DNA of 51,074 nucleotides from assembly GCA_017883205.1 (NCBI GenBank), contig JADGNZ010000044.1, positions 1 to 51,074 of the forward strand, in the 5' to 3' direction. The notes under the pieces were generated by a model. It was not told the origin of the DNA. It saw only the letters and a list, made by a program, of their open reading frames with translations, and ran no database searches. The DNA comes from Thermoanaerobaculia bacterium (GTDB lineage Bacteria > Acidobacteriota > Thermoanaerobaculia > Gp7-AA8). The number at the start of each line of letters is the position of its first letter. The stretch's first letter is position 1. Made by a program: the position numbers and the translations under genes. Positions 11,740 to 35,642 of the stretch are shown piece after piece.

Positions 11740-11750
11740 TCGGAGAAACA

Positions 11751-11880
11751 GAGACAAGAGATCAGAGACAAGAGATCAGAGACAAGAGATCAGAGACAAG
11801 AGATCAGAGACAAGAGATCAGAGACAAGAGATCATGTTCCCTTCTCTGATCTCTGATCTCTGATCTCTTGTCTCCGATCT
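11751..11880. repeat. Six perfect 14-bp tandem copies plus inverted arm
   Basis: GAGACAAGAGATCA is repeated six times without a mismatch at 11751-11834. It is followed after a short spacer by an inverted arm built from TCTCTGATC and ending in CTCTTGTCTC (about 11843-11874). The transcript can fold into a long, sliding hairpin. It begins 12 bp after the sulfatase-like stop and runs almost to the rnc start. The same word family appears at 35519-35637. Confidence 0.95.
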
Positions 11881-11903
11881 CGCTCCCGTATACTTCCACG
11901 CGA

Positions 11904-14952: not shown

Positions 14953-14954
14953 GC

Positions 14955-15026
<72 letters not shown>

Positions 15027-15031
15027 AGCCT

Positions 15032-16198
15032 CTAAAGCAAACCATCGAGCGCATCAGCGAGTTTCTCGTAGTCCTCGATCGAGTTGTAAAGCTGCGCGGA
15101 GACTCGCAGCACGCGGTTTCCGGCACGCGGCCACGGCACGATGGGCACTTCGATTCCGTGCTCGAAAAGCAGCGCGTCCTGCAGCGGATCGCCGTAGAGC
15201 GAGGTTGTTACATATGCCTCACCGTCCGGCAACGGCATCGCCGCCATCGAGCCGAGCATGTCGTCAGGCGCCGGGTTCTCGATGCCGAGGCGCGTGCAGA
15301 GCAGATCGCGCGCTCGCAACGCCATCTCGTGATTCCGCCTCATCACCTCGGGCCATCCCCCCTCCACGATCGATTCCATGAATCGCAGCGCCTCTGGGAC
15401 GCAGAGCCACGCGGTGGGATCGAGCGTGCCCGGCCAGTCGAACTCGAGGTGGAAGCGGCTGCGGTCCGTGCGCGTGGAGTTGTATCCGTGGCTGATCACG
15501 ACGGGATGGATGCCTAGCCGGCGGTTGGGTGCGACGTACAGAAATGCCGCTCCCTTCGGCGCGCAAACCCACTTGTGCAGATTTGCGGTGTAGTAGGCGG
15601 CGCCGAGGACGTCGAGGTCGAGGGGAAACATGCCGGGCGCGTGCGCGCCGTCGACGAGCGTGTCGATGCCGCGGTTCCTCAGCTCCGAAATGATGCGCTC
15701 GAGCGGGAAGATCAGCCCGGTCTGACTCGTCACGTGATCGATGAGCAGAAGGCGAGTGCGGTCGGTGACGCCGGCGAGCACGCGTTCGATGACCTCGTCG
15801 GAGGACGCGATCGGGAAGGGGATATCGATCGGGACGACCTTCGCTCCGGCGAGACCGGCCACGTACTCGAGCGCATTGCGTGAGGCGTTGTACTCGTGCG
15901 ACGTCACGAGCAGTTCATCGTGCTTGTCGAGATCGAGCGAGCGAAGAACGGCGTTCACGCCCGTCGTGGCATTGGGTACGAACGCGAGCGAGGCGGGATC
16001 GGCGCCGATGAACGCTCCGAGCACGGCGCGTGCTTGGTCGAGCAGCGGCTCGAGCTCGCGCACCATGAAGCGCACCGGCTCGCGCTCGAGTTGTGTACGA
16101 AGGTCGTTCTGCTTCGCCAGCACGACTTTCGGCGTAGCACCAAAGGACCCGTGATTGAGATACGTGATTTGGGGCTCGAGGAGCCAGTGTTCTCGCAT
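15032..16198 (-). CDS. Aminotransferase class V (isopenicillin-N epimerase / cysteine desulfurase-like fold)
   Basis: The protein has 388 residues, a usual length for the family. It is PLP-dependent: the internal aldimine Lys is in NLHKWVCAPKGAAFL, and the cofactor Asp/His segment is VDGAHAPGMFPLDL. The N-terminal YLNHGSFGATP is typical of the CefD / kynureninase-like branch rather than IscS, and there is no desulfurase Cys loop. The substrate is not predictable. It lies 48 bp downstream of the class I/II aminotransferase on the same strand and may be co-transcribed with it. Confidence 0.93.
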   Translation of the reverse strand: MREHWLLEPQITYLNHGSFGATPKVVLAKQNDLRTQLEREPVRFMVRELEPLLDQARAVLGAFIGADPASLAFVPNATTGVNAVLRSLDLDKHDELLVTSHEYNASRNALEYVAGLAGAKVVPIDIPFPIASSDEVIERVLAGVTDRTRLLLIDHVTSQTGLIFPLERIISELRNRGIDTLVDGAHAPGMFPLDLDVLGAAYYTANLHKWVCAPKGAAFLYVAPNRRLGIHPVVISHGYNSTRTDRSRFHLEFDWPGTLDPTAWLCVPEALRFMESIVEGGWPEVMRRNHEMALRARDLLCTRLGIENPAPDDMLGSMAAMPLPDGEAYVTTSLYGDPLQDALLFEHGIEVPIVPWPRAGNRVLRVSAQLYNSIEDYEKLADALDGLL

Positions 16199-17464: not shown

Positions 17465-18577
17465 CTACCCGCGGCAACCAGTCCGCGCGTCAGCCATCGC
17501 TTTTTCGAGGTCGCCGCGTGCAGCCGTTCGCGCGGGAGGCACAGCGTCGATCGCCGCGCGGAACGTCGTCAGCGCTTCGTTGCACGAGCCCTTCGCGGCC
17601 AGAACACGGGCGAGCGTGTCGAGCATCAGGTAGGAATCGGGACCTTGCAGCGCTACCGCTTTTCGGGCCAGCGACTCCGCCTCGTCATAGTGCTTCGTCT
17701 CGTAGAGCAGCCAGGCGAGATTGTTGAGGGCATCGCGCGACGATGGATCGATCGCCAGCGCTTTGCGGAACGCGTTCTCAGCGTCGTTGCGGTTACCGAG
17801 CTGCACTTCTGCGTTGCCGAGGTTGGTCCAGGCGAGGAGGGAGTCGGGGTGTTGGTCGAGGATGGACTGATACGCATGCGCGGCTTCGGCGTACTTGCCT
17901 GCTTCCTCCAACGCCACGGCGGCGCGGAGCGCCTCGGCAGCGGCGCGGGGATGGATCAGGATGGCTGCGTGGCCGCCTCCAGCCCACGCTTTTTCGAGAC
18001 GGTCGAAGGTCGTCCAGCGGCCCTGACCGTCGCCGAATTGCGTTCGGACAAGGCCACGCTCCGGGTCGATTCCGTCGGCCACGATGTAGTGAAAGAAATC
18101 GTAGTGGTGACCCGGCGAGTCGACGACCTGCAGCATCAGGATCACCGGCCGGCCCTGGCCGAGCTCGTCGCTGATGATCGCCGGCGTTCCGGTGATGAGC
18201 TGGGCGTCGAAGCCCGATTTTCGTGCGGCGATGAGCATGTCGATCGTCAGCACGCCGCCGCGCGTCTTCGGCAGTGTGTCGTCCCACGTGCGCATCGTGG
18301 TGGCGTCGCCGTAATGCTGCAGCACGGTCGACAGCGATCCCGCGCCGCACGATTCGATACCCCAACGCTGCATCGGAACGTTGGGGATGACCGATGCGGA
18401 CGGGGAGGCGTGCTGCGTTTTGGGGGTGATGGTGATGCAGGAAGTGAGTGTCAGGAGGGCTGCCAGAAGAAGCAGTGTTGAATGCTGGATGTTGAATGTT
18501 CGATGTTGAATGGGCCTCGGCGCCGGCTGTCCGGGTACCCGATTCGCGACCTCGGAACCGCCTTCAATATTCAACAT
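17465..18577 (-). CDS. PA2778-family cysteine peptidase (C39-like) with TPRs, lipoprotein
   Basis: From an ATG at 18577 the protein has 370 residues; the frame is open to 18652. The lipobox LTLTSC lies close downstream of the start, but no canonical start immediately precedes the hydrophobic stretch, so the N-terminus is uncertain and overlaps hairpin 18477-18600. The papain-like C39 domain has GIESCGAGSLSTVLQHYG (nucleophile Cys), the segment ending GHHYDFFHYIVADGID (His), and a preceding Gln (MQRWGIESCG). C-terminal TPRs cover roughly the last 160 residues. It neighbours a PA2779-type gene, as in Pseudomonas, which strongly supports the family. The target is unknown; a role linked to its small membrane partner is inferred. 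Confidence 0.85.
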   Translation of the reverse strand: MLNIEGGSEVANRVPGQPAPRPIQHRTFNIQHSTLLLLAALLTLTSCITITPKTQHASPSASVIPNVPMQRWGIESCGAGSLSTVLQHYGDATTMRTWDDTLPKTRGGVLTIDMLIAARKSGFDAQLITGTPAIISDELGQGRPVILMLQVVDSPGHHYDFFHYIVADGIDPERGLVRTQFGDGQGRWTTFDRLEKAWAGGGHAAILIHPRAAAEALRAAVALEEAGKYAEAAHAYQSILDQHPDSLLAWTNLGNAEVQLGNRNDAENAFRKALAIDPSSRDALNNLAWLLYETKHYDEAESLARKAVALQGPDSYLMLDTLARVLAAKGSCNEALTTFRAAIDAVPPARTAARGDLEKAMADARTGCRG

Positions 18578-18600
18578 CCAACATTCAACGTTCAACATTT
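18477..18600. repeat. Long inverted repeat made of TTGAATGTTGAATG words
   Basis: The left arm (18477-18513) iterates TTGAATGNTGGATG-like words and the right arm (18563-18600) the complementary ATTCAACATTCAAC. They are separated by about 50 bp of unrelated sequence. It lies between the PA2779-type stop and the PA2778-type signal sequence, and on the minus strand it runs into that gene's reading frame. Confidence 0.85.
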
Positions 18601-19243: not shown

Positions 19244-21409
19244 GTGATCCGCTTCGAAGACATCCTCGACAAAGTCGAAAGCTACAAGCCCGACTTCGAT
19301 GAGGAGCTGCTCGACAAGGCCTTCGTCTTCTCGGCCCGCGAGCATCGCGGGCAGGTGCGCAGCTCCGGCGAGCCGTACCTCGTCCATCCCCTCAACGTTG
19401 CCTACATCCTCGCCGAGATGCGGCTCGACGAGACCTCCATCGCCGTCGGTCTCCTGCACGACGTCCTCGAAGACACGCTGACGACGAAGGAGACGCTGCA
19501 GGAGCTTTTCGGCGACGACGTGGCCGAACTGGTGGACGGGGTCACGAAGATCTCGCGGTACGCCTACGTGTCGAAGGAAGAGCAGCAGGCCGAGACATTC
19601 CGCAAGATGCTCCTGGCCATGGTGAGCGACCTGCGCGTGGTCCTCGTCAAGCTGGCCGACCGGCTCCACAACATGCGTACGCTCGAGTTTCTCCCCGAGG
19701 AGCGGAGGCTGGCCATTGCCACGGAGACGATGGAGATTTACGCGCCGATCGCCAATCGCCTCGGCATGGGCCGCATCAAGAGCGAGCTCGAAGATCTCGC
19801 CTTCCGGCACATGCATCCGCGCGAATGCGAAGAGTTGCAGCGCAGCGTCAACGAGAAGCTGGCCGTGTCCGGTGACATCGTCGACCGCATCAAGAGCACG
19901 CTCACGGCCAAGCTCGCGGAGAACGACATCAACGGAGATGTCTTCGGCCGCGTGAAGTCGATGTACTCGATCTGGACGAAACTTCGGCGGCAGGAGATCG
20001 ACGTCGGCCAGGTCTACGACTACCTGGCGTTCCGCATCGTCACCGCCAACATCAAAGACACCTACGCCTGCCTCGGCATCATCCATCAGATGTGGCGTCC
20101 AGTCCCGGGCCGGATCAAAGACTACATCGCCATGCCGAAGCCGAACTTCTACCAGTCGCTGCACACGACCGTCGTTGCGGATAAAGGGCAGCCATTCGAA
20201 GTCCAGATCCGGACGCGGGAGATGGATCTCATCGCCGAACAGGGCATCGCCGCGCACTGGAAGTACAAGGAAGGGCGCATCGGAGCGCAGGCGGACGATT
20301 CGAACTTCCTCTGGCTCCGGCAGCTCGTCGAGTGGCAGCATGAGATCACCGACCCGCGCGTCTTCATGCAGTCGCTGAAGATCGACCTCTATCCCGACGA
20401 GGTCTACACGTTTACGCCGAGGGGGGACGTTTTCGCGTTTCCGCGCGGAGCGACGCCGCTCGATTTCGCGTATCGCATTCACACGGACGTCGGCCATCAC
20501 TGCGTCGGTGCGCGCATCAACGGCAAGCTCGTGCCGCTGCGGACGACGATCAAGAACGGCGACATCATCGAGGTGATCACCGCGCCGACGCAGTCGCCTT
20601 CGCGCGAGTGGATCAACATGGTGGTCACCTCGCGGGCCCGGCACAAGATCCGGCACTGGCTCAACACCGAGCAGAAACACCGGTCGATCGATCTGGGCCG
20701 GAAGTTGATCGAGAAAGAGGCCAAACGGTACCGCGTGCAGTGGCGGAAACTCGTCGCCGAAAATGCTCTCGACGCCGTGCTCGCCGAATACGGGCTGCCG
20801 CGGCTCGACGATCTCTACGCCGACGTCGGCTACGGCAAAGTCTCGCCGCGCGCGGTCGTCGAGCGCTTCGTGAAAGACGAGCAACCGCCGGCCGATGAAG
20901 GCGTCATCCAGCGTGCGGTGCGGAAGATCTTTCCCTTCACCGGCACCTCGCCCGCCATCAAGGTCAAGGGTTATGACGACCTGATGACCTATCTCGCCAA
21001 GTGCTGCAATCCGCTGCCGGGCGAGCGGATCGTCGGCTACATCTCGCGCGGCAAAGGCGTCGGCGTACACAGCGCGAGCTGTCCGAACGTGCGAAACCTG
21101 ATGTTCAACGCCGACCGTCAGATCGCGGTCGAGTGGGCGGATCAACGGTCGGCGCAGTTCCAGATCGAGCTGGAGATCGCCATGGAGGACCGGCAAGGCA
21201 TCCTGGCGCGGGTCGTCTCCACGGTTGCCAACATGAAGACGAACATCCGTCAGATGGATAGCCGCAGTACCGACGGCAAGGCCACCGCGGAGCTGACGCT
21301 GGAGATCGCCGACCTCAAGCACCTCGAGCGCATCATCAGGGCCATCGGGGACATCGAAGGCGTGGTAGCCGTCGAGCGCAAGTTCAACGTGCGGCATGCC
21401 ACGGCGTGA
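19244..21409 (+). CDS. Bifunctional (p)ppGpp synthetase/hydrolase, RelA/SpoT family
   Basis: From GTG at 19244 the protein has 721 residues (TTG at 19232 is an alternative; neither has a clear Shine-Dalgarno). Domain order is that of long RSH enzymes: an HD hydrolase at about 30-180 with HDVLEDT and DRLHNMRTL; a synthetase at about 230-340 (GRVKSMYSIWTKL, RIKDYIAMPKPNFYQSLHTT); TGS at about 385-450 (YTFTPRGDVFAFPRGATPLDFAY); a helical/zinc-finger-like region with CCNPLPGE; and ACT at the C-terminus. Intact HD residues indicate that it can both make and degrade the alarmone. It is transcribed away from the PA2779-type gene; the 190-bp gap between them shows no clear motif. Confidence 0.96.
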   Translation: MIRFEDILDKVESYKPDFDEELLDKAFVFSAREHRGQVRSSGEPYLVHPLNVAYILAEMRLDETSIAVGLLHDVLEDTLTTKETLQELFGDDVAELVDGVTKISRYAYVSKEEQQAETFRKMLLAMVSDLRVVLVKLADRLHNMRTLEFLPEERRLAIATETMEIYAPIANRLGMGRIKSELEDLAFRHMHPRECEELQRSVNEKLAVSGDIVDRIKSTLTAKLAENDINGDVFGRVKSMYSIWTKLRRQEIDVGQVYDYLAFRIVTANIKDTYACLGIIHQMWRPVPGRIKDYIAMPKPNFYQSLHTTVVADKGQPFEVQIRTREMDLIAEQGIAAHWKYKEGRIGAQADDSNFLWLRQLVEWQHEITDPRVFMQSLKIDLYPDEVYTFTPRGDVFAFPRGATPLDFAYRIHTDVGHHCVGARINGKLVPLRTTIKNGDIIEVITAPTQSPSREWINMVVTSRARHKIRHWLNTEQKHRSIDLGRKLIEKEAKRYRVQWRKLVAENALDAVLAEYGLPRLDDLYADVGYGKVSPRAVVERFVKDEQPPADEGVIQRAVRKIFPFTGTSPAIKVKGYDDLMTYLAKCCNPLPGERIVGYISRGKGVGVHSASCPNVRNLMFNADRQIAVEWADQRSAQFQIELEIAMEDRQGILARVVSTVANMKTNIRQMDSRSTDGKATAELTLEIADLKHLERIIRAIGDIEGVVAVERKFNVRHATA

Positions 21410-21423
21410 CGCCGCCGGCCGAC

Positions 21424-22194
21424 ATGCCCCGATTCGAACGATACGTTGCCATCGGAGACAGCACGGTCGAAGGACTCGACGATCCCGATGGGCGGGGCGG
21501 CTATCGGGGCTGGGCGGACCGGCTTGCTGCCAGACTCGCGGCGGAGCAGGGGAGCGTGCTCTACGCCAATCTCGCCATTCGTGGGCGGACGACGCATCAG
21601 ATCCGGCAGGAGCAGCTCGATCCTGCCGTGGTGATGCGGCCGGACCTGGTAGCCGTCGTCTCCGGAACAAACGATCTCCTGCGGCGGCGTTTCGATCCTG
21701 TGGCGCTGCGCGATGATGTCGAAGCGATGCAGGGCAGTCTGACCGGCACCGGCGCGGCCGTGATCACCTTCACCCTTCCCGACCTCGGCGACGTGATGCC
21801 ACTCGCGCGCATGGTTCGCGGGCGGCTGGTGCAGATGAATCAGATCATTCGCGATGCCGCGTCGAAGACGGGCGCGATCGTCTGCGACTTCGCCGCATAT
21901 CCGGTGGCGTCGGATCCTCGCCTCTGGTCGGACGACCGCCTCCACGCCAATACCGCAGGTCATGCCCGGATCGCCGACGCCCTCGCCGATCACCTCGGCC
22001 TGGCGGGCGCCAATCGATCATGGTCCGAGCCGCTGCCGGACGCCCCTCCGCCGCGATGGACGGACCTGCTGCGCGCCGAGGCGGCCTGGATGCGCCGGCA
22101 TCTCCTGCCATGGCTCTGGCGCCATGCGCAAGGGCGGTCGTCCGGCGACGGCATCACGCCGAAGCGGCCGCGGCTCACGTTGATCGAAGGGTAG
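21424..22194 (+). CDS. SGNH/GDSL-family hydrolase
   Basis: The protein has 256 residues from ATG at 21424. A GTG at 21406 would overlap the RSH stop by 4 bp and add 6 residues. Block I is AIGDSTVEG (Ser13), a Gly/Asn block is NLAIRGRTTHQIR, block III is VVSGTNDLL (Asn) and block V is WSDDRLHANTAGHARIADAL (Asp and His). There is no signal peptide, so it is probably a cytoplasmic esterase, lipase or deacetylase-like enzyme. The C-terminal 50 residues are basic and unlike the family core. It is probably co-transcribed with the RSH gene. Confidence 0.9.
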   Translation: MPRFERYVAIGDSTVEGLDDPDGRGGYRGWADRLAARLAAEQGSVLYANLAIRGRTTHQIRQEQLDPAVVMRPDLVAVVSGTNDLLRRRFDPVALRDDVEAMQGSLTGTGAAVITFTLPDLGDVMPLARMVRGRLVQMNQIIRDAASKTGAIVCDFAAYPVASDPRLWSDDRLHANTAGHARIADALADHLGLAGANRSWSEPLPDAPPPRWTDLLRAEAAWMRRHLLPWLWRHAQGRSSGDGITPKRPRLTLIEG

Positions 22195-22287
22195 GGAATC
22201 GCGATCGAGTTGCTCTCGAACGACGATCTAATGGTTGAACGCGTCGGTCGCGATCCGGAAGATTGCAGGCGGTGATCATCGTCATCT

Positions 22288-22707
22288 CAGATTCTCGATA
22301 GCGACATCGAGATTTTCGCCAACAACCCCGAAATTCTCGCGATCGACCCCGAGATTCTTGGGGTCAACCTCGAGATTCTTGGGGTCAACCTCGAGATTCT
22401 TGGGGTCAACCCCGAGATTCTTGGGGTCAACCTCGAGATTCTTGGGGTCAACCTCGAGATTCTTGGGGTCAACTTCGAGATTCTTGGGGTCGACCCCGAG
22501 ATTCTTGGGGTCAACCTCGAGATTCTTGGGGTCAACCCCGAGATTCTTGGGGTCAACCTCGAGATTCTTGGGGTCAACTTCGAGATTCTTGGGGTCGACC
22601 CCGAGATTCTTGGGGTCGACCCCGAGATTCTTGGGGTCAACCTCGAGATTCTCGCGATCGACCCCGAGATTCTCGCCATCGACATCGAGATCATCTTCAA
22701 CGCTATC
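22288..22707. repeat. Tandem array of twenty 21-bp units
   Basis: Twenty contiguous units with consensus GAGATTCTTGGGGTCAACCTC run without an indel. Units 4-17 (22351-22644) are nearly identical, varying only at unit positions 16, 19 and 20. The first three and last three units are degenerate and resemble each other (GAGATTCTCGCGATCGACCCC-like), so the array is roughly symmetric. Because 21 is a multiple of three, most frames are open: plus frame EILGVNL, minus frame EVDPKNL. None has ATG, GTG or TTG with a Shine-Dalgarno. It lies between the SGNH gene and rpmB, which is transcribed toward it. Confidence 0.97.
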
Positions 22708-22971
22708 CGAACGTTGAGCCGAACCTCACAGCCGACTTTGACGATCCGTTGACGGCGGCAACGTGTTCGCGATGATCGTCACGAGTCGCCGCCGTTGCCG
22801 GAGAACGAGGACAGCGAACGTCGGAGGGGTGATCCCGGCGGCGCTCCCTCCTTTTTGCGGGAGAACGCTTTGGGTCGCGGTCTCAGCCGCCGCGCGAAGA
22901 CCGGGCGCAGAGCTCCATCCGGAACGGATTTGCTCGGGGGAGGGAAGGCGAGGTTTGAAGGAAGGAAGGGG

Positions 22972-22991
22972 CCGCGCGTTTTACCGCGCGG
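22972..22991. repeat. Hairpin enclosing the rpmB stop codon
   Basis: CCGCGCG (22972-22978) and CGCGCGG (22985-22991) flank TTTTAC, which contains the complement of the rpmB stop codon in the loop. No T-run follows on the minus strand. It could be a mild terminator or 3-prime stabiliser. The rest of 22708-22980 is GC-rich without a recognisable gene. Confidence 0.6.
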
Positions 22992-23175
22992 CTTTGGCGA
23001 TCTTGCCTGTACGGATGCAGCGTGTGCAGACGTTCATCCGCTTCACGGCGGCGCCCACCATCACGCGAACGCGCTGCAGATTCGGCAGCCACCGGCGGCT
23101 GGAAACATTGTGGGCATGACTGACCCGGTTACCGAACACGGGGGCCTTGCCGCAGACTTCGCACATCTTTGCCAT
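22981..23175 (-). CDS. rpmB: 50S ribosomal protein L28
   Basis: The protein has 64 residues, the normal length of short bacterial L28. It opens [21 protein letters not shown] and has a second CxxC near residue 50 ([12 protein letters not shown]), forming the four-Cys zinc ribbon of the C+ form. GAGGAG lies about 8 nt before the ATG. It stands alone, divergent from the pil operon. L28 binds 23S rRNA near the exit-site region of the large subunit. Confidence 0.96.
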
Positions 23176-23299
23176 CTTGACTCCTCAAATAACGTGAAAG
23201 GGGTGGGATTGTAACGGCTGGCCCGTTCTGGCGCAACCGTGCGGGCCTGAAACGGGCTCGACTTCGCGTATCCGACTGATAAATCTAAAGCCTGTAGAG

Positions 23300-23328
23300 T
23301 TGACACTCACCTTTAAACGTTGTAATTT
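23300..23328 (+). promoter_or_regulatory. Near-consensus sigma-70-type promoter for the pil operon
   Basis: TTGACA at 23300-23305 and TAATTT at 23323-23328 are separated by exactly 17 bp. They lie about 65 bp upstream of the pilM start in the 216-bp gap from divergent rpmB. Expression from a housekeeping-type promoter is inferred. Confidence 0.7.
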
Positions 23329-23391
23329 CGACTGACTTTTACACATCTGGAGCCGCCGAGAAGTGAGTGTGTGAGATGGACGGGGTGAGCG

Positions 23392-24450
23392 GTGTTCTTC
23401 TCAAAGAGCAAAAATGTCGTAGGTCTCGATATCGGTTCATCAGCCGTAAAACTGATTGAGCTGAAGGAGAAGAAGGGCGGGACGTTCCAGCTCGTGAAGC
23501 TTGGAATCGAGCACCTTTCTCCCGAGGCGATCGTCGACGGATCGATCATGGATTCGTCGCTGGTTGTCGAGACGATCGGGCGCCTAAACACAAGCAAAAA
23601 CATCAAGAATTCCAACTACGCCACCTCTCTGTCCGGGCACTCCGTGATCATCAAGAAGATCACGCTCCCGGCCATGTCCCCCGAGGAGTTGGCAGAGTCG
23701 ATTCAGTGGGAGGCCGAGCAGTACATTCCCTTTGATATCAACGACGTAAACCTCGACTACGTTCCTCTCACCGCGCCCGGAACGGGTGACAACATCGACG
23801 TCATCCTCGTCGCGGTGAAGAAAGAGAAAATCAACGACTACACCTCCGTCATCAGCCAGACCGGGAAGGTGCCCGTTCTCGTCGACGTCGATGCCTTCGC
23901 GCTCCAGAACGCCTACGAGATGAACTATGCGATCGTCCAGGGGAAGGTTCTGGCTCTGGTGAACGTGGGGGCTTCGGTGACGAATGTCAACGTCCTTTCC
24001 GGTTCCACGTCGGTGTTCTGGCGCGACATTACTTTCGGTGGCAATCAATATACGGACGCCATTCAGCGCGAGCTCAGCCTCTCGTTCGAGCAAGCAGAGG
24101 AACTGAAGAAGGGCCACCAGACAGGCGACTACAGCATTCAGCAGGTCATCCCCATTCTCAACTCGGTGAGCGAGGATTTCGCCGGCGAGTTGCGGAAGAC
24201 GCTCGATTTCTTCACCGCCACGTCCGGTGCGGACCGCGTCGATGAGATCGTTCTCGCCGGCGGCGGATCGGGCGTCCTGAACCTCGACGCCATCCTGCGC
24301 GACAAATTCGGCATCCCCGTTTCCATCATGGACCCGTTCCAGAAGGTCACTGTCGACGAGAAGTTGTTGAGCCCCGAGGAGTTGGCCGAGCTTGGTCCGA
24401 GTATGGCCATCGCGGTCGGCCTGGCCATCCGAAAGCTGGGGGATGCTTGA
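23392..24450 (+). CDS. pilM: Type IV pilus assembly ATPase-fold protein PilM
   Basis: The protein has 352 residues from GTG. It is an FtsA/actin-fold cytoplasmic protein that binds the PilN N-terminus and links the inner-membrane alignment complex to the cytoplasmic motors. The phosphate-binding loop GLDIGSSAVKLIEL is at about 10-24, and the adenosine motif LAGGGSGVLNLDAIL at about 285. The segment SIQWEAEQYIPFDINDVNLDY is characteristic of PilM. Length is normal. It is first of five overlapping or closely spaced genes and overlaps pilN by 4 bp (TTGA). Confidence 0.95.
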   Translation: MFFSKSKNVVGLDIGSSAVKLIELKEKKGGTFQLVKLGIEHLSPEAIVDGSIMDSSLVVETIGRLNTSKNIKNSNYATSLSGHSVIIKKITLPAMSPEELAESIQWEAEQYIPFDINDVNLDYVPLTAPGTGDNIDVILVAVKKEKINDYTSVISQTGKVPVLVDVDAFALQNAYEMNYAIVQGKVLALVNVGASVTNVNVLSGSTSVFWRDITFGGNQYTDAIQRELSLSFEQAEELKKGHQTGDYSIQQVIPILNSVSEDFAGELRKTLDFFTATSGADRVDEIVLAGGGSGVLNLDAILRDKFGIPVSIMDPFQKVTVDEKLLSPEELAELGPSMAIAVGLAIRKLGDA

Positions 24451-25136
24451 TCAAGATTAACTTAGTGCGGGAAGGGCGGGCTGTACGGGGTACCGGAACG
24501 GCCGTCAGTTCGGCGTCTGCCGTTCCGGGACCGACCAACCTCAACAATGTCTTCCTCGCCATTGCGCTCATCGCCGGTGTCGTCGTCGCCGGCGGATGGT
24601 ATTTCCTCGAGAATCGGAAGCTCGCTGAGCGCCAGGATCTCCTGGTCCAGAAACGGGCCGAAGCCAAACGCCTCGAGGCGATCATCAAGGAAGTCGACAA
24701 CTACAAGAAGCAGAAAGAAAGCCTGAAGACGCGGATCGATCTGATCAATCAGCTCAAACAGAATCAGAAGGGGCCGGCACGTCTGATGGACCGCATCAGC
24801 CAGGATCTGCCGGATCTGGTCTGGCTCGACAAGATGAGTGTCGTCGGCAACACCGTGTCGCTCGATGGCCGCGGTCTGAATCCCAATGCCATCGCGAACT
24901 TCGTCGAGAGCATCAAGAACGATCCGATGTTCGAGGAGCCGGATCTCGGCAGCGTGACGCAGGTGTCGTCGGTGCCGCTGGTTTACTCGTACACGATGAA
25001 CTTTCATTTCAACTACGCACCGAAGGGTGCGCCTGGAACTACCGAAGCGGCGGCGAAGAGTGCCGCTCCGGGCAATGAAGCACCTGCGACGGGAACGGCC
25101 GCAGTGCCGCCGGCGTCAACGGCGCCGAAGCGGTAG
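24447..25136 (+). CDS. pilN: Type IV pilus inner-membrane protein PilN
   Basis: The protein has 229 residues from a TTG start overlapping pilM. It begins IKINLVREGRA, close to the INLLP-type PilM-binding motif. One transmembrane segment lies at about 35-52 (VFLAIALIAGVVVAGGWYFL), then a coiled coil (about 55-110) and a PilN periplasmic core (DLPDLVWLDKMSVVGNTV). The C-terminal 35 residues are an Ala/Pro/Thr-rich tail. It should dimerise with PilO in the alignment complex. Confidence 0.93.
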   Translation: MIKINLVREGRAVRGTGTAVSSASAVPGPTNLNNVFLAIALIAGVVVAGGWYFLENRKLAERQDLLVQKRAEAKRLEAIIKEVDNYKKQKESLKTRIDLINQLKQNQKGPARLMDRISQDLPDLVWLDKMSVVGNTVSLDGRGLNPNAIANFVESIKNDPMFEEPDLGSVTQVSSVPLVYSYTMNFHFNYAPKGAPGTTEAAAKSAAPGNEAPATGTAAVPPASTAPKR

Positions 25137-35518: not shown

Positions 35519-35523
35519 GAGAC

Positions 35524-35634
35524 AGAGATCAGCGACAAGAGATTAGAGATCAGGACAGCTCCGTTGGTCCCTGATCTCTTGTCTCTGATCCCCTGTCTGT
35601 TGTCCTGATCTCTAATCTCTTGTCTCTGATCTCT
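35524..35634. repeat. Hairpin with 34-bp arms between accC and aroK
   Basis: Arms 35524-35557 and 35601-35634 are reverse complements with a single mismatch; the inner 24 bp are perfect (ending GAGATCAGGACA / TGTCCTGATCTC). The intervening segment carries more of the same AGAGATCAG-type words. It begins 6 bp after the accC stop and ends 8 bp before the aroK ATG. It has the same word family as 11751-11880. Confidence 0.97.
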
Positions 35635-35642
35635 GCTGCAAC

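Follow-up and report, generated by a model that had tools for sequence, protein, structure and literature searches.

A 21-bp tandem array beside rpmB in a Thermoanaerobaculia genome and its satellite class: two-helical-turn units and dyads that may be protein-bound

The window considered here is a stretch of 51,074 nucleotides, which makes up one entire contig of a Thermoanaerobaculia genome of 6.37 Mb in 105 contigs (G000 below). A search of this assembly for a 16S gene returned none. A tandem array lies between two of its genes, and the features in and around it are listed here; the genes were named by Pfam, and L003 and L004 are sister arrays in the same genome.

19244-21409, plus strand: RelA/SpoT gene, upstream of the hydrolase gene
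21406-22194, plus strand: GDSL/SGNH hydrolase gene, which stops 93 bp before the array
22288-22707, no strand assigned: tandem array of 20 units of 21 bp, minus-strand unit GAGGTTGACCCCAAGAATCTC
22288-22350, no strand assigned: three degenerate edge units, one of which resembles the terminal unit of L003
22351-22644, no strand assigned: 14 near-identical inner units, variable at three positions only
22645-22707, no strand assigned: three degenerate edge units at the opposite end, which grade into units resembling GATGTCGATGGCGAGAATCTC, as seen in L004
22981-23175, minus strand: rpmB (ribosomal protein L28), convergent with the hydrolase gene
23392-24450, plus strand: PilM gene, beyond rpmB

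An earlier note, made from the letters of the window, had described 20 tandem units of 21 bp without indels, and this description is borne out. Tandem Repeats Finder reports positions 22323-22673 with a period of 21, 16.7 copies, 91% matches, 0% indels and a score of 548; extension in register leads to 20 units at 22288-22707, the outermost of which are degenerate. Over the 420 bp of the array, identity is 0.87 at a lag of 21, compared with 0.17 at lags of 7 and 14. The same note had confined variation to three positions, which is correct for the 14 inner units, where differences fall at minus-strand positions 2, 3 and 6 of the unit; when all 20 units are compared, further positions vary too. 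Both ends of the array decay toward GATGTCGATGGCGAGAATCTC-like units. Growth of the inner units by block duplication is not significant, since 6,968 of 20,000 permutations do at least as well. An origin from heptamers (21 being 3 x 7) was likewise rejected, as no 7-bp sub-period is present in the window array, L003, L004 or L023, an array of the relative G002, where identity at lag 7 is 0.17-0.24.

The window array is one of many. Arrays were called without reference to their sequence, by tandem identity at each lag from 12 to 120 bp. The 0.89 Mb sampled of G000 contains 38 arrays, of which 30 are intergenic, and 26 of these 30 have periods of 20-22 or 41-43 bp. The proportion of intergenic arrays with periods of 20-22, 41-43 or 63 bp is 10/11 in G002, which is of the same genus, and 6/7 (one at 63 bp) in G009, which is of the same family but another genus, giving 42/48 for the three genomes pooled. 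A few of the G000 and G002 stretches had been fetched for holding an array; without them the proportions are 24/27 and 10/11, with 6/7 for G009. Base-shuffled copies of the sampled stretches yield no arrays. In the G000 stretches not chosen for an array there are 24 intergenic arrays in 785,987 bp, or 30.5 per Mb, which would amount to some 190-200 genome-wide if they were evenly spread. G002 has 10 intergenic arrays in 321,477 bp and G009 has six in 280,000 bp.

The period is selective among long arrays, whereas short duplications are spread over many periods. Intergenic repeats of less than 90 bp have periods of 20-22 or 41-44 bp in 10/90 cases in G000, 4/36 in G002 and 5/35 in G009. At 90 bp or more, the fractions at 20-22, 41-44 or 63 bp are 26/36, 13/14 and 6/7, respectively. 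Three- or five-turn periods (31-32 or 52-53 bp) are absent from the arrays called in these three genomes. The remark in the earlier note that the window unit spans two helical turns is supported: the constraint on period recurs genome-wide, and it includes units of 20, 22, 41 and 43 bp. These lengths are not multiples of three, and among the 29 arrays whose period is 21, 42 or 63 none has codon-phased variation at p < 0.05 (the window array has p = 0.71), so that the unit length seems to be measured by the helix rather than by the codon.

The sequences of the units are diverse. Counting also those labelled genic, the 31 G000 arrays with such periods fall into 20 BLASTN groups at an E-value of 1e-5, with group sizes of 5, 4, 2, 2, 2 and 2, and 14 arrays standing single. 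Under a laxer rule of two shared 9-mers, applied with no null, six clusters, one with 11 members and the others smaller, take in 25 of the 31. The best 6-mer, CATCGA, is present in 7/31 arrays where 0.4 would be expected, and so in a minority of them. When ORFs that lie on the arrays themselves are disregarded, two of 50 arrays are inside a called gene. Convergent gaps are favoured, with 13 of 41 classed arrays as against 116 of 685 other gaps of at least 30 bp (p = 0.03), and divergent gaps hold few of the arrays (6/41 as against 155/685). The nine arrays left out of this classing comprise six at stretch edges, one far from any gene and the two inside genes.

Repeats of another kind are also found. 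At 11749-11881 of the window, six 14-bp units CAGAGACAAGAGAT are followed, after 8 bp, by about five complementary heptamers, a potential long intergenic hairpin. Similar inverted pairs of heptamer-built arrays are present at 18476-18599 and 35520-35640, and heptamer repeats recur in G000, G002, G009 and G012.

The window array has relatives in its own genome. L003, L004 and an array on contig 40 are its sisters, making a family of four in the G000 sample. L003 has about six units and is 87% identical to the window array over the matched part; L004, which lies between convergent genes, has about ten units, degenerate ones of the form GATATCGATAGCGAGAATCTC. By BLASTN, a distant fifth member is the G002 array L023. 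It lies at L023 1430-1735 and has a 21-bp unit, CTCGAGGTTGCCCATAACTTT, with no dyad symmetry; it sits downstream of a putative peptidase M23 gene, named by eye. When the window array was compared by BLASTN with 60 genomes, its own among them, matches were obtained in three: its own, G002 (L023) and G014. The two G014 matches are short, do not form arrays and by eye resemble coding DNA. In other relatives the window-unit pattern gives scattered single matches only. A degenerate pattern gave seven hits in genome contigs and one in viral contigs, in a scan that may omit records near the own genome; a 21-bp periodicity is lacking at all eight sites, which are therefore taken as chance matches. In G009, stretches L116 10681-11158 and L125 9825-10291 have the sequence GGCCGGTTGCAAATGAA in common, in opposite orientation. 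L116, L125 and L121 form one BLASTN group, and therefore G009 too has dispersed array families.

The distribution of the arrays is dense but patchy, with absences that rest on small samples. No array of the class is found between genes in 120 kb of G012, 200 kb of G018, 86 kb of G022, 100 kb of G028 or 400 kb of G049, the last of which has four genic arrays of the class in that stretch. A further eight members of the family, among them one congener, contribute a single 24-bp array in 284 kb together. Within the family there are relatives that are array-free in the stretches sampled. Intergenic arrays of the class are also absent from 100 kb of E. coli and 100 kb of pSymB.

The arrays also turn over fast. 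It had been proposed in the earlier note that absence of the window array from close relatives with clean flanks would argue for a neutral satellite. The first half of this is observed in the congener G002, which has no array at the corresponding place, but its gap holds other genes. In G002 the SGNH gene, whose protein is 84% identical, has other genes and no array after it. No array lies between rpmB and pilM either, about 3.6 kb further on the same contig; the region was covered but for 32 bp between two pieces. At a second site both flanking genes match: the G002 gap L088 16786-17856 (1,071 bp) contains two arrays, and its G000 counterpart is an array-free gap of 102 bp. The two L088 arrays were called at 43 and 42 bp, with a second calling giving the first at 107 bp or missing it. 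By eye, an inverted repeat joins them. Elsewhere in G002, a 21-bp array at L078 7619-8055 lies 3' of a gene matching the window ORF 15032-16198. The gap on the matching side of that ORF, window 14953-15031, is 79 bp long and array-free; one flank was matched, and the site may differ.

Dyad symmetry beyond chance is present in 24 of 42 intergenic arrays, for which at most 5 of 100 column permutations equal the observed symmetry. It is not significant in 18 of the 42, and for L023 of G002 the observed value was matched by 99 of 100 permutations. Palindromic 8-mers number 10 where 2.1 are expected, and palindromic 10-mers six where 0.45 are expected. Substitution rates were compared in 14 of the 42 arrays, those omitted having no 5-bp stem or being more than 20% divergent in register. 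In these clear-stem arrays the dyad arms had changed at 103 of 1380 positions (0.075), compared with 304 of 1927 other positions (0.158), and none of 10,000 rotations of the stem gave arm variation as low. Without the two strongest arrays, L056 and L144, the counts are 97/1110 for the arms and 201/1630 for the rest, with 91 of 10,000 rotations as low. The effect is not uniform. In five of the 14 arrays the actual stem does not stand out as a position of low variation (ranks 9/20, 14/42, 17/42, 25/42 and 34/43), and in L135 and L117 the arms are more variable than the rest.

In L056 1.4% of arm positions have changed against 35% outside the arms, and in L144 3.1% against 34%. Of the arm-pair cells in these two arrays, 132 of 137 are unchanged; all five changes lack a compensating change on the opposite arm, suggesting that it is the sequence that is kept and not pairing alone. 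Pooled over 19 arrays, several of them out of register, the stem pairs give a mixed picture, with 48 compensated, 135 single and 62 double uncompensated changes where 34.4, 222.6 and 34.4 are expected. The arm sequence of L056 and L144, TGAGT-N4-ACTCA (TGAGTNNNNACTCA), has 73 sites in G000, and its reversed control has none. Among the 50 G000 sites listed, 44 are in four arrays and six are single, and all 40 gaps inside the four arrays are multiples of 21 bp. G002 has 25 sites (control, one); among the 22 listed, 21 are in two arrays, with the same spacing except for one 20-bp step. Eighteen other relatives have 0-3 sites, the congener G001 having none (control, two).

The window array fits this dyad pattern but does not carry it. 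Its consensus has no clean 5-bp stem, which places it outside the set of 14, and its core variation falls within its own 12-bp dyad. The most constant stretch of the unit is AGAATCTC(G), containing the odd palindrome AGAATCT, while the GGGGTCGACCCC half varies. Across the 20 units AGAATCT has changed in 4 of 140 cells, as against 50 of 280 at the other 14 positions, the stretch having been picked post hoc.

The window array is almost certainly a member of the class of non-coding bacterial satellites of constant size and variable sequence, and its role probably lies at the level of DNA rather than of RNA or protein. Among the options put forward in the earlier note, binding of proteins to the DNA appears, from the sequence data, to be the best supported. 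The period follows the helix and not the codon, which favours a DNA-level role; a single origin or partition site, which that option also envisaged, is set aside because there are about 30 such arrays per Mb. The best overall reading, to which we give a probability of about 0.5, is a satellite with a two-turn unit and helically phased dyads that is probably bound by protein. That the phased dyads would be read by one or more proteins is itself an evenly balanced proposition.

Under this reading, the unit length would be held by a constraint on rotational phase, such that the dyads recur on one face of the helix. Dimeric proteins, with a different one for each array family, would recognise the arms in the DNA itself; they may bind along the array in a cooperative manner, with local effects on supercoiling, on read-through by transcription or on nucleoid structure. 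In the window array, the element read would be the near-invariant AGAATCT dyad, present once per 21 bp. A broader proposal can be made tentatively, and we think it somewhat less probable than its negation: the 20-21-nt satellites may all be helically phased operator arrays, each family with its own dyad and its own dimeric protein polymerising along the array. They would then equip the chromosome with private structural marks, up to about two hundred of them, which are rebuilt with new sequences as species diverge.

The main rival, rather doubtful but to be taken seriously, is a neutral or selfish satellite, which would arise through slippage, or through unequal recombination, wherever gaps tolerate it, and would have no reader. 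The 21-bp unit would then reflect the replication or recombination machinery, for instance a helical-phase or hairpin-sized step. The many private sequences agree with this, 14 of the 31 G000 arrays matching no other G000 array, as do the turnover at orthologous sites, the patchy distribution and the fact that the three array-bearing genomes are the largest sampled (6.4-6.9 Mb). Such a satellite does not readily account for a concentration at 21 bp in long arrays that is not seen in short duplications, for arms that are less variable than the rest, or for the recurrence of the TGAGT dyad at separate loci and in the congener G002. Template switching that perfects near-palindromes could keep the arms alike, and the excess of compensated pairs pooled over 19 arrays points in that direction; it should, however, produce some compensated changes in L056 and L144, where there are none.

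It is unlikely that the arrays instead act as transcribed RNA, forming long imperfect hairpins 3' of genes with a function in read-through or stability or as sponge RNA. A repetitive RNA was among the options of the earlier note, and for the window array itself the folding data lend it some support. Compared with shuffles, the plus strand, downstream of the hydrolase gene, folds with a z of -18.7 and the minus strand with a z of -11.5. Within the 12-bp element of the inner units, all 70 pairs remain pairable on the plus strand when G-U is counted, as against 59 of 70 on the minus strand, but this pattern depends on two variable positions. L004 (z -6.1) and L003 (z -3.6) also fold better than shuffles, but L023 does so barely (z -1.9). 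The lean toward convergent gaps would suit such an RNA. Where a sense strand can be defined, the option loses ground: of 23 arrays flanked by genes in the same orientation, eight have the better fold on the sense strand and 13 on the antisense strand. Rfam gives no match at the gathering score in window 20000-25000, with sub-threshold microRNA-like matches only, and an RNA would leave the 21-bp period without a reason.

A palindrome family of the REP/BIME type, mobilised by a Y1 (RAYT-type) transposase, is very improbable. G000 has 15 Y1_Tnp matches above the family cut-off, and both kinds of element are intergenic and often palindromic. Nevertheless, the unit here is fixed near 21 bp and falls into many sequence groups, whereas REPs, in the part of PMC3733652 available, are palindromes of 20-40 bp, most of them tagged with GTAG or CGTC; neither tag is present on either strand of the window core unit. 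Least credible of all is a heptad-repeat protein gene, intact or decayed, an option that the earlier note had entertained; its frames would be EVDPKNL on the minus strand and RFLGSTS on the plus strand. In its favour are a period divisible by three, the open frames and the fact that, in the EVDPKNL frame, two of the three core changes leave the amino acid unaltered. Against it, a 21-bp unit need be open by chance only once for the frame to stay open across the whole array, neither open frame across the window array has a Pfam match, codon-phased variation is absent from all 29 arrays compared, and other arrays have periods of 20, 22, 41 and 43 bp.

Several known systems bear comparison with the arrays described here. 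Plasmid iterons and centromere repeats are direct repeats at whole helical turns, of private sequence, with proteins bound along one face. Each replicon has them at one or a few places, next to a gene for replication or partition, whereas the present arrays occur many times per Mb beside unrelated genes.

REP/BIME elements, as presented in the available part of PMC3733652, are similar to the present arrays in being intergenic and palindromic and in leaning to the 3' ends of genes. They differ in being tagged, in occurring as dispersed single or clustered units and in being partly linked to transposases, and they do not form arrays of a fixed 21-bp unit. The 52-nt Bacillus satellites described in the accessible text of PMC8161180 (Subirana & Messeguer) are alike in constant size and variable sequence and differ in unit length, no 52-bp period being found among the arrays called in G000, G002 and G009.

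The earlier note knew of no described element with this unit. The window unit itself is not described in the accessible text of PMC8161180, but the class is. The tandem repeats reported there are generally non-coding, with a constant length of 20-21 (and 52) nt and a variable, species-specific sequence, and are found in many bacterial groups; in other groups the unit is 20-23 nt. Most repeats of a species carry a characteristic short signal. Several families are present per genome, dimers of 40-41 occur, and the repeats are rich in some species and rare in others. According to the same text, 20-21 nt corresponds to two helical turns, nucleoid proteins and small RNAs are discussed, and no function is known. 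Signals and their reverse are often found within one 52-nt repeat, and the string 'palindrom' is absent from the text as accessed. Literature linking the class to palindromes or to the present lineage was not found, in searches that were thin on subscription journals.

The arrays described here resemble the 20-21-nt satellites, as far as the text of PMC8161180 describes them, in unit size, in the variability of sequence between families, in the presence of several families, in being mostly non-coding and in their patchy distribution; the window family and the TGAGT dyad are shared at most with close relatives. They differ in density, with about 30 arrays per Mb compared with the 4.36 Mb of B. 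weihaiensis, where 29 repeats of 20-21 nt were counted (Table 4 of that paper, obtained by a different detection method), in having dimers of 41-43 bp, and in the dyad enrichment and arm constraint measured here. A class with fixed unit length and free sequence has been on record without an explanation, and the present lineage is dense in it. Two clues are provided at the level of sequence, namely that nearly only two-turn units grow long and that dyad arms change less than spacers; a caution also follows for annotation, where a long open frame over such an array should not be taken for a gene. The class itself is already known; the present data add that it is dense in this lineage, that period is restricted among its long arrays and that, inside the units, dyad arms vary less than the rest.
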